NCBI GenBank assembly: GCA_903873185.1
Contig: CAIQNN010000051.1
Coordinates: 1-54,899 of the forward strand
DNA: 54,899 nucleotides
Source of the DNA: an uncultured Actinomycetes bacterium
GTDB taxonomy: Bacteria; Actinomycetota; Actinomycetes; Nanopelagicales; Nanopelagicaceae
Direction of reading: 5' to 3'
Positions 3-36,776 of the stretch are shown here, in pieces. The notes beneath the pieces are model-generated. The model worked only from the letters and a program-made list of their open reading frames with translations. It was not told the DNA's origin and made no database searches. The position numbers and the translations under genes are program-made. Positions within the stretch are counted from its first letter, which is position 1. Each line of letters starts with the position of its first letter.

Positions 3-125
3 TATCTCGTACTAGCCGAGGGTGCGGTTCGAAAACTGCCTGCGCCTGCGATCTTTTTCGGCATCTTTGCCTTTGCCACGCTCTCACTCTTGCTCTACTT
101 CGTTCTTCGACTAGACCGGGATTAA
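3..125 (+). CDS. C-terminal end of a membrane protein (partial)
   Basis: The frame is open from the window edge to TAA at 123-125 and gives about 40 residues. They contain one clear hydrophobic segment (AIFFGIFAFATLSLLLYFVL) followed by a short charged end (RLDRD), so the last transmembrane helix leaves a small tail, probably cytoplasmic. The family cannot be named from this fragment. Its stop overlaps the proposed start of nadD, so the two are probably co-transcribed. Confidence 0.6.
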   Translation, partial: YLVLAEGAVRKLPAPAIFFGIFAFATLSLLLYFVLRLDRD

Positions 126-714
126 AACGATCTCCAAAGGCCAGCGACGGGTAGGAATTCTCGGCGGCACTTTCGACCCCATTCATCGAGGCCATCTTCA
201 TATTCTTGAAGCAGTGGCGAATCGTTTTGAGCAGATTTTGGTTATCCCATCAGGGCAACCATGGTTGCGAGCAGAGCCGCCAGTTGCAAGCGGAGCCGAT
301 CGACTAGAAATGTGCAGCAAGGCGCTCGACGATCTTCCCAGTGAACTACAAGAAGTTGTAGCGCTGACGGATATCGAGATTCAGCGCTCCGGACCAACTT
401 ACGCAATTGAAACAGTTTCCCAATTAAAGGCGTTCTTTCCGGGCGATCAATTTACTTTGATACTCGGCAGTGATGCTGCGGCAACTTTTGATCAATGGCA
501 TCGTGCGAAAGATTTACGAACCATCGCCGAAATCTTGGTAGTGCGTCGTCCAGGCCAGGCAAAGTCCAAGTTTGCCGAAGTCGAAATTGACGCGATTGAT
601 ATATCGGCAACGCAAATTCGAGCATTACTTGAAAGTGGCGAAGATGTTTCGCCATATATTTCCAATTCGGTTCTAACCTATATAAAAGAGCGAGGCCTGT
701 ATGGCAGCAAGTGA
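121..714 (+). CDS. nadD: Nicotinate-nucleotide adenylyltransferase (NadD), start codon non-canonical
   Basis: NadD joins nicotinate mononucleotide and ATP to give deamido-NAD in NAD synthesis. The nucleotidyltransferase signature GGTFDPIHRGH, which contains the HxGH ATP site, is encoded at 163-195. The C-terminal ISATQIR motif near 601-621 matches the ISSTxxR signature of the family. The first ATG/GTG/TTG in frame is GTG at 214, which lies downstream of the catalytic signature and would give a dead enzyme. The frame is open back to a stop at 112-114 and has no standard start. The best guess is ATT at 121, overlapping the upstream TAA; it gives about 197 aa, the usual family length. ATC at 130 is an alternative. 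The end overlaps rsfS by 14 bases. Confidence 0.9.
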   Translation: MKTISKGQRRVGILGGTFDPIHRGHLHILEAVANRFEQILVIPSGQPWLRAEPPVASGADRLEMCSKALDDLPSELQEVVALTDIEIQRSGPTYAIETVSQLKAFFPGDQFTLILGSDAAATFDQWHRAKDLRTIAEILVVRRPGQAKSKFAEVEIDAIDISATQIRALLESGEDVSPYISNSVLTYIKERGLYGSK

Positions 715-1063
715 GCAAGTTAAGAAGATCACCGAGATCGCAGCACAGGCAATTGCCGACAAGCTGGGGTATGACATTGTCGCTCTGGATATGACGGAAC
801 AACTTCTATTATCGGAAGTTTTTCTGATTGCAACTGGTGCAAATGAGCGCCAAGTCGATGCCATCGCGGAAGCAGTCTTTGAGAAACTGGCAGCCTTTGG
901 CGAGAAGCCGGTTCGCAAAGAGGGTAAAGGCCAGTGGCTGTTATTGGATTACTCGGATCTAGTAGTTCACATTCAAACTGAAGAACTTCGGGGCTATTAC
1001 ATGCTTGATCGCCTTTGGAATGATTGCGCTCGAATTCCGTTAGATATTGAAGAAACTCGCTAG
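701..1063 (+). CDS. rsfS: Ribosomal silencing factor RsfS (YbeB/Iojap family)
   Basis: RsfS binds ribosomal protein L14 on the 50S subunit and blocks subunit joining when nutrients run low. The 120-aa protein is a complete single DUF143 domain. Characteristic parts are visible: the LGYDIVALDM opening strand, FLIATGANERQVDAIA, the GQWLLLDYSDLVVHI core, and the RGYYMLDRLW end. It starts inside nadD in another frame, and the nadD-rsfS pairing is conserved across bacteria. Translation is probably coupled to nadD. Confidence 0.95.
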   Translation: MAASEQVKKITEIAAQAIADKLGYDIVALDMTEQLLLSEVFLIATGANERQVDAIAEAVFEKLAAFGEKPVRKEGKGQWLLLDYSDLVVHIQTEELRGYYMLDRLWNDCARIPLDIEETR

Positions 1064-5302: not shown

Positions 5303-5923
5303 GTGAACCTTCCCGAGCTTGTCGATATAACTTCCTCGCAACGCAGAGGGTTGGCAATTCTCGCTAGTTCGGTGCTGCTTTTGGGCGCCTTCTATCTCTA
5401 CCTTGGACAGGGCAGGGCAATTGAGAGCGCCTCGGCCAATACCCCGCCAGAAATTGGCCAACTGATCACGCCATCGCCATCACCCAGCCCGACACTTCTC
5501 TTAGTTATAGATGTTGCTGGTCGGGTGAAGCGCCCCGGCGTGTATTCGCTTCCGTTTAACTCTCGGGCGATCGATGCAATTAAGGCTGCTGGTGGTGCCC
5601 TACCGGGCGTGGATTTAAGCGATATCAATTTGGCACAACTGGTGGTTGACGGGGAACAAATTTTGGTCGGGCGCATAGTTCCCTCACCAGTCACTAAAAC
5701 TAATTCAAAGAGCAAATTGCCTTCCAGCACTGGGATCATTCCGATCAACTCAGCTACTGCCGCAGAATTGGACTCGCTGCCTGGTATCGGCCCAGTAATC
5801 GCGAAACGAATCATTGATTATCGGATGAAGAACGGGCCCTTCACCTCACTCGATCAATTGCGGAAAGTTTCCGGAATGGGTGCCGCCAAATATCAGGTGA
5901 TCAAATCTCATCTAAGACTTTAG
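5303..5923 (+). CDS. comEA: ComEA family DNA-binding competence protein
   Basis: A membrane-anchored DNA receptor for natural transformation, 206 aa. An N-terminal membrane segment lies at about residues 15-35. A short Pro/Ser-rich linker follows, then a SLBB-type domain (about 69-118, DVAGRVKRPGVYSLP) and a C-terminal helix-hairpin-helix pair (INSATAAELDSLPGIGPVIAKRIIDYR ... LRKVSGMGAAKYQVI). It sits directly upstream of comEC, the usual pairing. No pilus or ComFA genes occur in the window, so whether the cell is competent cannot be judged here. Confidence 0.93.
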   Translation: MNLPELVDITSSQRRGLAILASSVLLLGAFYLYLGQGRAIESASANTPPEIGQLITPSPSPSPTLLLVIDVAGRVKRPGVYSLPFNSRAIDAIKAAGGALPGVDLSDINLAQLVVDGEQILVGRIVPSPVTKTNSKSKLPSSTGIIPINSATAAELDSLPGIGPVIAKRIIDYRMKNGPFTSLDQLRKVSGMGAAKYQVIKSHLRL

Positions 5924-5949
5924 GAAATAAATCTGAGCCCTCTTATCTG

Positions 5950-8208
5950 TTGCTAGGCATCGGCATGGGTTTGTGGTTAGGTTCGGCGGCTTCGCTGTGG
6001 CAGAGTTTTTGGATTCTTGCTTTAACGATTGTTTTGATGGGGTTTACCTATAACTTCTATCGGAACTTGACGTTGGTCCTTTTGCTTGCGATAGCTACTG
6101 GTGCAATCGGAATGGCGTTCAGAGAGGTAGCGCTCTCCAGAAACTTGGTCAGCCTTGCCGCCAAAGATCACAGTCAAGGATCGATCACGGCGTTGCTGCT
6201 AACTGATCTCCACCAAGGAAGTGCCAAGGTTATTGGCTCTCATTTACGAGCTGGTAATTATTCGGCACTAGTTAAAACTGCAACCGTGAAGATCGCCGAA
6301 CGCGAGTATCGAATTCGCCTCCCGCTTCGGCTAATCAGCCGAAGTCCGATTGCAGCGATCCCAGGAGATCACCTGTTTTGTAATGGGCAATTTCTCTTGG
6401 GCACCGAACGTAAAGTTGCAGCGCTATTTTCAATCACGGGAAAATGTCAGATTCGCCGGAGTAAAAATCCACTTGATCTAATTACTTCTCAAATTCGAAC
6501 GACCTTTCGTGCGCAAGCCAGAGTTATCCCGGGTGATGCCGGAGCTTTAATCCCAGGATTAGTTCTGGGGGATACCACTCTCGAGAGTTCTGCCTTCGCA
6601 ACCCAGATGCGCCGGACTGGGCTGACTCACTTGACCGCCGTAAGCGGTGAAAATTTCGCCATTATTGCCGCTTTTCTTGCCTTCTTATTGCAATGGATAA
6701 TTCCGAGGTTACGGATCCGATTGCTTATAACAGCGGTCTTTTTGCTTGGGTTTATTTTTCTGGTTCGACCTTCGCCTTCGGTAATGCGTGCCTGTGTGAT
6801 GACAGCGGTTCTGTTATTCGCAAAAGCTAAGGGGGAACGCAGTTCCCCGCTACCGGCGCTGGGGTTAGCGATTTCAGTCTTGTTGGTAGTTGATCCATTC
6901 CAAGCGGTAGATCCGGGATTCTCACTTTCAGTCGGCGCAACTGCCGGAATTTTGCTATTTTCGCCAAAATTAATCGCGACGTTAGAGCCGACCTTGGGTC
7001 GCTGGTCGGAGAGTATTGCGATTCCCTTGTCGGCGACGTTGGCCTGTTCGCCAATAATAATCGCCCTCTCTGGTCAGCTCTCGCTGGTAACGCTGCCTGC
7101 CAATCTGCTAGCTGCTGGCGCGGTAGCTCCAATAACCATCCTGGGATTGATCGCGGCGCTGCTTCCATTTATTAGTCATCCATTGCTTATCGCCGACTCA
7201 CCTTTTGCCAAGTGGATTGCGTTAATTGCCCACAAGGGGGCTGCGATGCCATTACTGCTGCTGCCCAAGAGTGCGTACGGAATTCTGATTGGAATCACAC
7301 TGGGAGTATTCCTTTTGCGCAGATCGTTCAAGCTTTTAATTGCAGCCGGAGCGCTGTTGGCGCTTTTGATCTGGTCGCCGGTCACCGTTTGGCCTGGTCG
7401 CAATTGGGTATTTGTAAATTGCAATGTGGGGCAAGGCGATGGTGCCGTGATCAATTTAGGAAACCACTCGGCAATTGTGATTGACACGGGACCAACGCCG
7501 GCGTTAATTGACGAATGCCTATCTGCACTTCAAATTCGCACGGTGTCACTCTTGGTGCTAACCCATTTCCACGCCGATCACGTGATGGGATTGGCAGGAG
7601 TTTTGCATCGGCGCAAAGTTGGTGCAGCATGGATAACGAATTTGGCAGAACCAGCTATTGAGTATCAAGAGACAATGCAGTTGTTGCATGCGATCCCAAC
7701 CATAAAAGTTCACCAAGGTGAGAAGATTTCGTTAGCTGAGATATCAAGCGGTCGAACTTACGGCGATATCAATATCTTGTGGCCAAAGCTCTTGCCAACC
7801 GAGTTAGCCAACCTCCCAGGGGATGGCTCAAAAGTTAATAACGCGAGCATCGCGCTTTTGATAAATATCAATGGAATGAAGATTTTTGCCGGCGGCGATA
7901 TTGAACCTCCCGCTCAAGAACTCATCGCAACTTCTAAATTGCTACCGGTGGTTGACATCTTGAAAGTTAGCCATCACGGCTCGGCATATCAATATTTGCC
8001 GCTGCTCGATCAATTGCGCCCGAAAATCGCGGTGATCAGCGTCGGGGCTGGTAATTCCTATGGCCACCCGGCGCTAACCACGCTCAGTGCGTTAAAGGCC
8101 CGAGCAATTCCTACCTACCGAACTGACGTTGATGGCGCGATTGCCGTTGACTCCTCCTTTAAGATCAGGGTTCTAAAGAAGGATTGGTGGCGGATCTCGT
8201 GGGGTTAG
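5950..8208 (+). CDS. comEC: ComEC/Rec2 family DNA internalisation protein
   Basis: The inner-membrane channel that takes up single-stranded DNA. The 752-aa protein has many hydrophobic segments. The competence domain includes HLTAVSGENFAIIAAF and RPSPSVMRACVMT. A C-terminal metallo-beta-lactamase-like domain carries H539-x-H541-x-D543-H544 (THFHADHVMG) and VSHHGS. The start is taken as TTG 5950, because the region between comEA and this point offers no ATG or GTG in frame; a slightly earlier start is possible. Its end overlaps the start of holA. Confidence 0.93.
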   Translation: MLGIGMGLWLGSAASLWQSFWILALTIVLMGFTYNFYRNLTLVLLLAIATGAIGMAFREVALSRNLVSLAAKDHSQGSITALLLTDLHQGSAKVIGSHLRAGNYSALVKTATVKIAEREYRIRLPLRLISRSPIAAIPGDHLFCNGQFLLGTERKVAALFSITGKCQIRRSKNPLDLITSQIRTTFRAQARVIPGDAGALIPGLVLGDTTLESSAFATQMRRTGLTHLTAVSGENFAIIAAFLAFLLQWIIPRLRIRLLITAVFLLGFIFLVRPSPSVMRACVMTAVLLFAKAKGERSSPLPALGLAISVLLVVDPFQAVDPGFSLSVGATAGILLFSPKLIATLEPTLGRWSESIAIPLSATLACSPIIIALSGQLSLVTLPANLLAAGAVAPITILGLIAALLPFISHPLLIADSPFAKWIALIAHKGAAMPLLLLPKSAYGILIGITLGVFLLRRSFKLLIAAGALLALLIWSPVTVWPGRNWVFVNCNVGQGDGAVINLGNHSAIVIDTGPTPALIDECLSALQIRTVSLLVLTHFHADHVMGLAGVLHRRKVGAAWITNLAEPAIEYQETMQLLHAIPTIKVHQGEKISLAEISSGRTYGDINILWPKLLPTELANLPGDGSKVNNASIALLININGMKIFAGGDIEPPAQELIATSKLLPVVDILKVSHHGSAYQYLPLLDQLRPKIAVISVGAGNSYGHPALTTLSALKARAIPTYRTDVDGAIAVDSSFKIRVLKKDWWRISWG

Positions 8209-35920: not shown

Positions 35921-36094
35921 ATGCCGGTCCCAAAGCGAAAGATGTCCCGTTCTCGCACCCGTCATCGTCGTAGCTCATGGAAAACCACTCCAGCACCTTT
36001 GGCGCCTTGTGGTCAATGCCAGCAACCTAAGTTGATGCATGCAGCCTGCCCAACCTGCGGTACCTATAACCGTCGTCAGGTTCTCGAGGTCTGA
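35921..36094 (+). CDS. rpmF: 50S ribosomal protein L32 (zinc-binding form)
   Basis: A short 57-aa ribosomal protein: MPVPKRKMSRSRTRHRRS at the start, then CGQC and CPTCG Cys pairs (zinc ribbon, C+ type) and the end TYNRRQVLEV. AAAGGG lies about 10 bases before ATG. The leader at 35811-35920 contains a small hairpin (GCGTT/AACGC) just upstream. rnc begins within or immediately after this gene. Confidence 0.97.
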   Translation: MPVPKRKMSRSRTRHRRSSWKTTPAPLAPCGQCQQPKLMHAACPTCGTYNRRQVLEV

Positions 36095-36095
36095 T

Positions 36096-36776
36096 CTGTA
36101 CGCTCGTCTAACCGAAGCTCTCGGAATTTCGGTTACTGATGAGTTGTTGGAATTAGCCCTGACCCACCGTTCTTTTGCTTACGAATCTGGTGGCATACCT
36201 ACTAACGAGCGCTTGGAATTCTTAGGCGATAGTGTTTTAGGTTTGGTAGTTACCGAAGAGCTTTACGCAAAATTCCCAGATTTCGATGAATCCCGGCTCT
36301 CGCCACTGCGCTCTGGTGTAGTCAATATGAGAGCCCTGGCGCAGATTGCTCGCACGCTTGAACTTGGCGAGCACCTTCGAATCGGCAAAGGCGAGGAAAG
36401 CTCTGGTGGCCGTGACAAGAACTCAATCTTGGCCGACTCCCTCGAGGCGCTAATTGGTGCCATCTATCTCGAGCATGGTTTTCAAAAGTGTGCCGAAATA
36501 ATTTTGAAGTTGGTTCGTCCAGCAATTGCGCAAGCACATTCGCAGGGGATCGGGCTGGATGGCAAAACGGCGCTCCAGGAATTGGCCGCAGCAAGAGGTC
36601 TCACCTCCCCGGAATACGAAATCACCGAATCTGGTCCTGATCACGACAAGGCATTTACTGCTGCTGCGATTCTTTCGGGCGAAAAATTTCCAATCGGCGA
36701 GGGTAAAAGCAAACGAGAAGCGGAACAGGTCGCAGCCCGCTTGGCATACGAGGCGTTAATTGCCAGAACTTCCTGA
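36096..36776 (+). CDS. rnc: Ribonuclease III, start codon uncertain
   Basis: The double-strand RNA endonuclease that processes rRNA precursors. The protein has the signature NERLEFLGDSVLGLVV, the second acidic cluster in DSLEALIGAIYLEHG, and a C-terminal dsRNA-binding domain (DGKTALQELAAARGL ... KREAEQVAARLAYEAL). The only standard start in frame is ATG 36039, which overlaps rpmF by 56 bases, lacks a Shine-Dalgarno sequence and adds 19 unconserved residues. CTG 36096 lies one base after the rpmF stop, with GAGGT 5 bases upstream, and gives a normal-length N-terminus (YARLTEALG). I favour CTG. Overlaps mutM by 17 bases. Confidence 0.93.
   Translation: MYARLTEALGISVTDELLELALTHRSFAYESGGIPTNERLEFLGDSVLGLVVTEELYAKFPDFDESRLSPLRSGVVNMRALAQIARTLELGEHLRIGKGEESSGGRDKNSILADSLEALIGAIYLEHGFQKCAEIILKLVRPAIAQAHSQGIGLDGKTALQELAAARGLTSPEYEITESGPDHDKAFTAAAILSGEKFPIGEGKSKREAEQVAARLAYEALIARTS

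Follow-up and report, generated by a model that had tools for sequence, protein, structure and literature searches.

A probable AUC start codon of nadD conserved in three genera of Nanopelagicaceae

The nicotinate-nucleotide adenylyltransferase gene (nadD) of an uncultured member of the Nanopelagicaceae is predicted to start with AUC, and comparison of relatives indicates that AUC is the conserved nadD start codon across the three genera most similar to it (g1, g2 and g10). Ribosomes normally avoid AUC as a start codon, and nadD is essential in bacteria where it has been studied. It is very probable that nadD is intact, that its true start is the AUC at 130-132, read as fMet, with initiation there that would be weak, fed by ribosomes from a small upstream ORF and set in its yield by IF3; the weakness, the coupling and the IF3 control are the parts that we infer. 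We regard the clade-wide AUC start (elsewhere AUU) on a gene of NAD synthesis, together with a CUG start on rnc, as a real feature of these bacteria. Gene finders that accept only ATG, GTG and TTG would truncate NadD beyond its catalytic motif or miss the gene, and could misplace RNase III. Named genera of the family are abundant in freshwater, according to an excerpt of PMC7527133.

The nadD gene of the window

The window, the whole stretch of 54,899 nucleotides that was analysed, begins with the first base of contig 51, and therefore the ORF upstream of nadD lacks its 5' end but retains its stop (Table 1). The nadD product scores 129.2 bits against the TIGR00482 profile, above the curated cut-off of 112.45, and also matches the Pfam profile PF01467. 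It is the only nadD match in the genome, and both nucleotidyltransferase signatures are present, if ISATQIR is, as we assume, the second of them. The nadD frame is open from the TAG at 112-114 on, and its first in-frame ATG, GTG or TTG is the GTG at 214, the only place where the ORF listing of the window puts the nadD start. This GTG is downstream of the ATP-binding motif, so that a start there would delete the catalytic signature. The sequence-only reading, that no standard start codon precedes this motif, is thus confirmed.

Table 1. Features of the nadD and rnc regions of the window
Feature	Position	Strand	Remarks	Basis
Small membrane-protein ORF, 3' end	3..125	+	stop TAA 123-125; 5' end missing
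Shine-Dalgarno-like GGGA	118..121	+	8 nt ahead of ATC	anti-SD duplex -4.1 kcal/mol
ATT overlapping upstream stop	121..123	+	rejected as start	like ATT in 14/48 g1/g2/g10 loci
ATC, proposed nadD start codon	130..132	+	4 nt past upstream stop	comparison of relatives
nadD, nicotinate-nucleotide adenylyltransferase	130..714	+	194 aa counted from ATC 130	TIGR00482, PF01467
GGTFDPIHRGH, ATP-binding signature	163..195	+		translation
ISATQIR	601..621	+		translation
rsfS	701..1063	+	ATG start; 14-nt overlap with nadD end	TIGR00090
rpmF (L32)	35921..36094	+	stop TGA 36092-36094, directly before rnc	TIGR01031
rnc (RNase III)	36096..36776	+	proposed CTG start 36096-36098, 1 nt past rpmF stop	TIGR02191

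Genomes and loci compared

The NadD protein was matched in 257 of the 296 genomes of the order, all in one family and representing 17 genera; 39 genomes gave no match. The 5' end of nadD was read in 139 loci from 138 genomes and 15 genera, with 48 of these loci in g1, g2 and g10. Outside this set lie L191 (G071), in which the motif was not found, two matched g2 genomes (G016 and G017) and most g11 matches; g5 is represented only by loci resembling that of CP015606, and g6 by none. A locus was counted as having a standard start if ATG, GTG or TTG occurs at or upstream of position -9 from the motif, a definition that excludes the TTG at -3, a leucine codon directly before GGTFDP that is found in at least five genomes. 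One bin, G085, carries two nadD matches (L132 and a second contig) and is perhaps mixed.

A start without ATG, GTG or TTG

No standard codon able to give the conserved NadD N-terminus is found in 47 of the 48 loci of the three genera (3/3 in g1, 17/18 in g2 and 27/27 in g10). Across the family such a start is missing from 62 of the 139 loci, including 14/17 in g8 and 1/1 in g14. Each locus read in the ten other genera has one, although g7 and g15, which are counted as standard, are uncertain assignments in which a TTG is within the small ORF or an ATC or ATT is close by. In other families of the class, a standard codon occurs in frame within 75 nucleotides of the motif in 28/29 loci, with L400 as the exception.

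What takes the place of a standard codon in g1, g2 and g10 is an in-frame ATC located 0 to 20 nucleotides past the stop of the small ORF, which is present in 46 of the 48 loci. The gap between stop and ATC is 4 nucleotides in 37 loci, 0 in two, 3 in one, 12 in one, 15 in four and 20 in one. The two remaining loci have ATT, at +4 in G019 and at -1 and +5 in G026; G019, a member of g2, also carries a TTG 16 nucleotides past the stop, which is a possible alternative start. A second in-frame ATC, at -11 and within the small ORF, is an additional start candidate, although it is less conserved (17/48).

The distance from ATC to the motif varies while the codon stays close to the upstream stop. It is at -33 in G001 and in the window, in the latter because of a 12-nucleotide insertion relative to g10 genomes, at -57 in G002, and at -21 in others. 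Five g10 genomes reverse this pattern, with ATC fixed at -21 and the gap to the upstream stop widened to 12-15 nucleotides. Taken together, these distances suggest that the codon is mostly anchored to the upstream stop and not to the motif. In four genomes the frame leaves little choice: it opens just 21 nucleotides before the motif in G006 and G024, where ATC is its first codon, and 24 and 30 nucleotides before the motif in G103 and G109, making ATC the best candidate. The N-terminus that results from the proposed start is presumably as long as that of Bacillus NadD.

Two start candidates had been offered from the sequence of the window, ATC 130 and ATT 121, and only the first is borne out by the relatives. 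It is very improbable that nadD starts at ATT 121, which overlaps the upstream stop as ATTAA. This ATT is in frame in the window and has an equivalent in 14 of the 48 loci, and a stop-overlapping ATT looks like the nadD start in g8 and g14; however, the position reads ACT in G001 and most g10 genomes, and ATT versus ACT tracks GAT versus GAC in the last codon of the upstream ORF.

A sequencing error had also been proposed as what would dispose of the unusual start. Relatives were compared, and the occurrence of ATC in 46 of 48 assemblies excludes such an error. The wider alternative, that the start site is a sequencing or assembly artefact or that nadD has decayed, has a negligible probability. 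The window nadD does sit at a contig end, but a standard start is missing from 47/48 loci of separate assemblies, the ATT form occurs in G065-G067 and CP015606, and the single nadD match in the genome has both signatures intact.

Codon constraint and phylogeny

The start codon is conserved beyond its amino-acid meaning. Full-length nadD genes were available for 24 of the 27 g10 loci, and they share 69 amino-acid-invariant columns, methionine and tryptophan excluded. Only five of these columns have a single codon in all 24 genes: the ATC start and four columns at the 3' end (187, 193, 194 and 196), in the part of the gene that is shared with rsfS in the window. Of the seven invariant isoleucine columns besides the start, six use two or three codons each.

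In a quick, single-gene tree of 86 NadD proteins, in which the ATC label was applied by rule within g1, g2 and g10 only, the ATC rows form one clade (SH-aLRT 99) that includes G019 and G026. ATT rows are placed outside this clade, in g8 and in a group of g14 and IMCC26077 type.

Genus g8 and some other genera appear to use ATT as the nadD start. The ATT that overlaps the stop (TAATT) in g8 and g14 resembles a start there, and starts of the ATT type also occur in the single-contig genomes G065-G067 and in CP015606. Among 51 motif matches in loci L058-L110, a standard nadD codon is found in 43, and all eight loci that have none carry GATCACTAATTC at the junction, with ATT in frame. The nadD start elsewhere in the family appears to be AUU in some lineages and UUG, GUG or AUG in others. 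L084, a contig titled Candidatus Fonsibacter lacus, has the same nadD junction (GATCACTAATTC) as the actinobacterial loci and is probably mis-binned.

The junction with the upstream ORF

The small ORF is complete in L033 (about 2350-2500), where it encodes 49 amino acids with one hydrophobic stretch and is flanked by ligA on one side and nadD on the other. The ORF and its LRLDRD-like C-terminus are widespread in the family, and no Pfam profile matched the ORF above the cut-off. The spacing of the ORF and nadD, 4 nucleotides in most loci of the three genera and a TAATT overlap in g8 and g14, is that of coupled gene pairs, which overlap or lie a few nucleotides apart. According to the excerpted text of PMC6728339, hand-over of ribosomes has been proposed for termination-reinitiation pairs that overlap, for example, as ATGA or TGATG. 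The junctions described here resemble these pairs in having stop and start a few nucleotides apart, but with AUC or AUU (nadD) or CUG (rnc) as the start. Reinitiation, which had been suggested as another route to NadD, is a plausible route to the AUC and is not an alternative to it.

A frameshift from the upstream gene had been suggested as well, and does not hold as a common route, given that in G006, G024, G103 and G109 the upstream ORF shares the frame of nadD and ends at a stop. We consider it highly improbable that NadD is a fusion product of the upstream ORF, made by frameshifting or by readthrough of its stop. The two reading frames abut and differ in the window, as such a mechanism would have it. 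However, their relation is not constant between genomes, which argues against both frameshift and readthrough, and an open path is also missing: with a gap of 0, 12 or 15 nucleotides (7/46) the upstream ORF already shares the frame of nadD and ends at its stop, so that a shift is of no help; two stops separate the ORFs in G103 and G109; and readthrough cannot reach nadD where the gap is 4 nucleotides (37/46).

The ribosome-binding site of nadD is ordinary. Ahead of the ATC, the median strength of Shine-Dalgarno pairing is -4.0 kcal/mol (range +0.4 to -6.0; 46 loci), similar to the median of -4.5 kcal/mol for 39 standard-start sites of the window, whose starts were assigned by rule. It is not the strong or extended Shine-Dalgarno sequence of infC, sigR and ccpN. 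The five g10 genomes with the wider gap have AGG or GGG 7-8 nucleotides before the ATC. A conserved RNA fold was not found over the g10 nadD junction (RNAalifold -2.1, 27 sequences), where folding has a median z of -0.4 against mononucleotide shuffles, a crude control; a dedicated RNA switch thus finds no support in the fold. Among TTG-start nadD loci, L049, L051, L052, L053, L055 and L056 carry a perfect short hairpin, CGGGAC-TAATTT-GTCCCG, that spans stop and start.

A proposed CUG start on rnc

A second gene with an apparently non-canonical start is rnc, which follows rpmF. Its start position reads CTG in 21 of the 27 family loci that could be located (29 were examined), in genera g1, g2, g8, g10, g11 and g12. 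Five g10 genomes with a longer rpmF-rnc junction (G096, G102, G103, G109 and G121) have ATG at the homologous position, and G135 has another standard start. In 8 of the 21 CTG loci, the open frame also contains some standard codon, which lies far upstream in six and near in G178 and G271. CTG is likewise found in four further g11 loci, in one of which an ATG follows three codons later. In other families, a standard codon occurs in the searched rnc stretch in all 21 located loci. The alternation of CTG and ATG with junction length makes rnc a natural test of whether ribosome hand-over relaxes the choice of start codon.

IF3 and the meaning of the weak start

AUC and AUU starts are disfavoured by IF3, and the gene for IF3, infC, itself uses AUU, AUC or AUA in an autoregulatory arrangement. 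The rare start of infC had been drawn on as a parallel to nadD, and aptly: the infC start position reads ATC in 47 of 49 family loci with one search pattern and 48 of 49 with another, counts that include L226, L227 and L233 by pattern alone, without visual inspection. A standard codon is present farther upstream in the open infC frame in 26/49 loci and in none of the other 23, and the infC AUC consequently rests on position and precedent. The two genes are alike in having AUC at the start position, a codon class disfavoured by IF3, within one family. They differ in that infC encodes IF3 itself and has a far stronger Shine-Dalgarno site (median -8.1 kcal/mol, 49 loci), whereas nadD combines an ordinary site with an abutting upstream ORF. 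In L239 (G178), the infC start is seemingly GTC rather than ATC, the codon reported for Streptomyces sigR.

If the AUC start of nadD functions as these comparisons suggest, its weak initiation would keep NadD low. Ribosomes or 30S subunits that finish the small ORF could supply much of the initiation across the 4-nucleotide gap, and the level of IF3, whose own gene apparently starts with AUC here, might set the yield. NAD synthesis would then follow the IF3 level and the state of translation.

A different possibility, to which we give a little less than an even chance, is that AUC is tolerated and unregulated: a ribosome that has just finished the small ORF would be at hand, so that the start codon would come under relaxed selection and drift to near-cognates. 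The predominance of the 4-nucleotide gap (37/48 loci) is consistent with this proposal, as are the TTG, GTG or ATT nadD starts of other genera and the parallel of rnc, with CTG where rpmF ends 1 nucleotide upstream and ATG in five g10 genomes whose rpmF-rnc gap, as judged from the sequences, is wider. Several g12 genomes, in which nadD directly follows a LigA-like end of EAQFKKLL type and starts with ATG or GTG, also fit. However, ATC is held in 46/48 loci, and there is no drift among near-cognates in the clade. Moreover, G096, G102, G103, G109 and G121 retain ATC for nadD at a gap of 12-15 nucleotides yet have ATG for rnc, which hints at selection for a weak codon beyond mere tolerance. Because these five genomes form one small clade, they represent one observation and not five.

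More speculatively, and with more doubt than belief, the family may use weak starts to place a few genes under the control of IF3: infC (AUC), nadD (AUC or AUU), rnc (CUG) and perhaps comEC. NAD synthesis and RNA processing would then depend on the level of IF3 and on how ribosomes pass over gene junctions.

Comparison with known systems

The closest precedents also concern conserved non-canonical starts. E. coli pcnB reportedly has an AUU start of this kind that lowers translation. Experimental characterisation is limited to very few non-canonical starts, according to an excerpt of PMC5472188, which describes an ATC start for Streptomyces infC and, for Streptomyces sigR, a GTC start with experimentally established repression by IF3. 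Like nadD, sigR is an actinobacterial gene other than infC with a conserved non-canonical start; unlike nadD, a metabolic gene whose AUC is put forward from comparison only, it has an extensive ribosome-binding site and experimental proof in the excerpted text. In S. aureus, the AUU of cvfC1 and the AUA of ccpN are reported to lower yield (excerpt of PMC13009471); their starts are conserved as in nadD, but both genes have extended Shine-Dalgarno motifs in that account. Other non-canonical starts are likewise described with strong Shine-Dalgarno sites in the excerpts of PMC13009471 and PMC5472188. Among titles and abstracts of open-licence papers, we found no report of a non-canonical nadD or rnc start.

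Other genes of the window

As a control, the starts of 54 genes of the window that have a G098 counterpart were screened. Six were flagged, and after inspection nadD, comEC and rnc were left without a convincing standard start in one or both genomes, rnc lacking a standard start in G098 only; the other three reflect incomplete or short alignments, or an alignment that continues past a good ATG on its upstream side. Another screen, over 48 plus-strand frames of the window, flagged nadD and rnc, and also frames at 1738 and 5246 that have ordinary starts.

The comEC gene (5818-8208) has a conserved N-terminus without a standard start in a number of g1, g2 and g10 genomes. In the window it has a TTG at 5950, and the comEA stop is at 5921-5923. 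The comEC start may lie further on, or the gene may be reached by a -1 frameshift or an unusual reinitiation. The end of comEA and the frame of comEC overlap as NTAA or NTAG; G096 and G103 have GTGA at this place.
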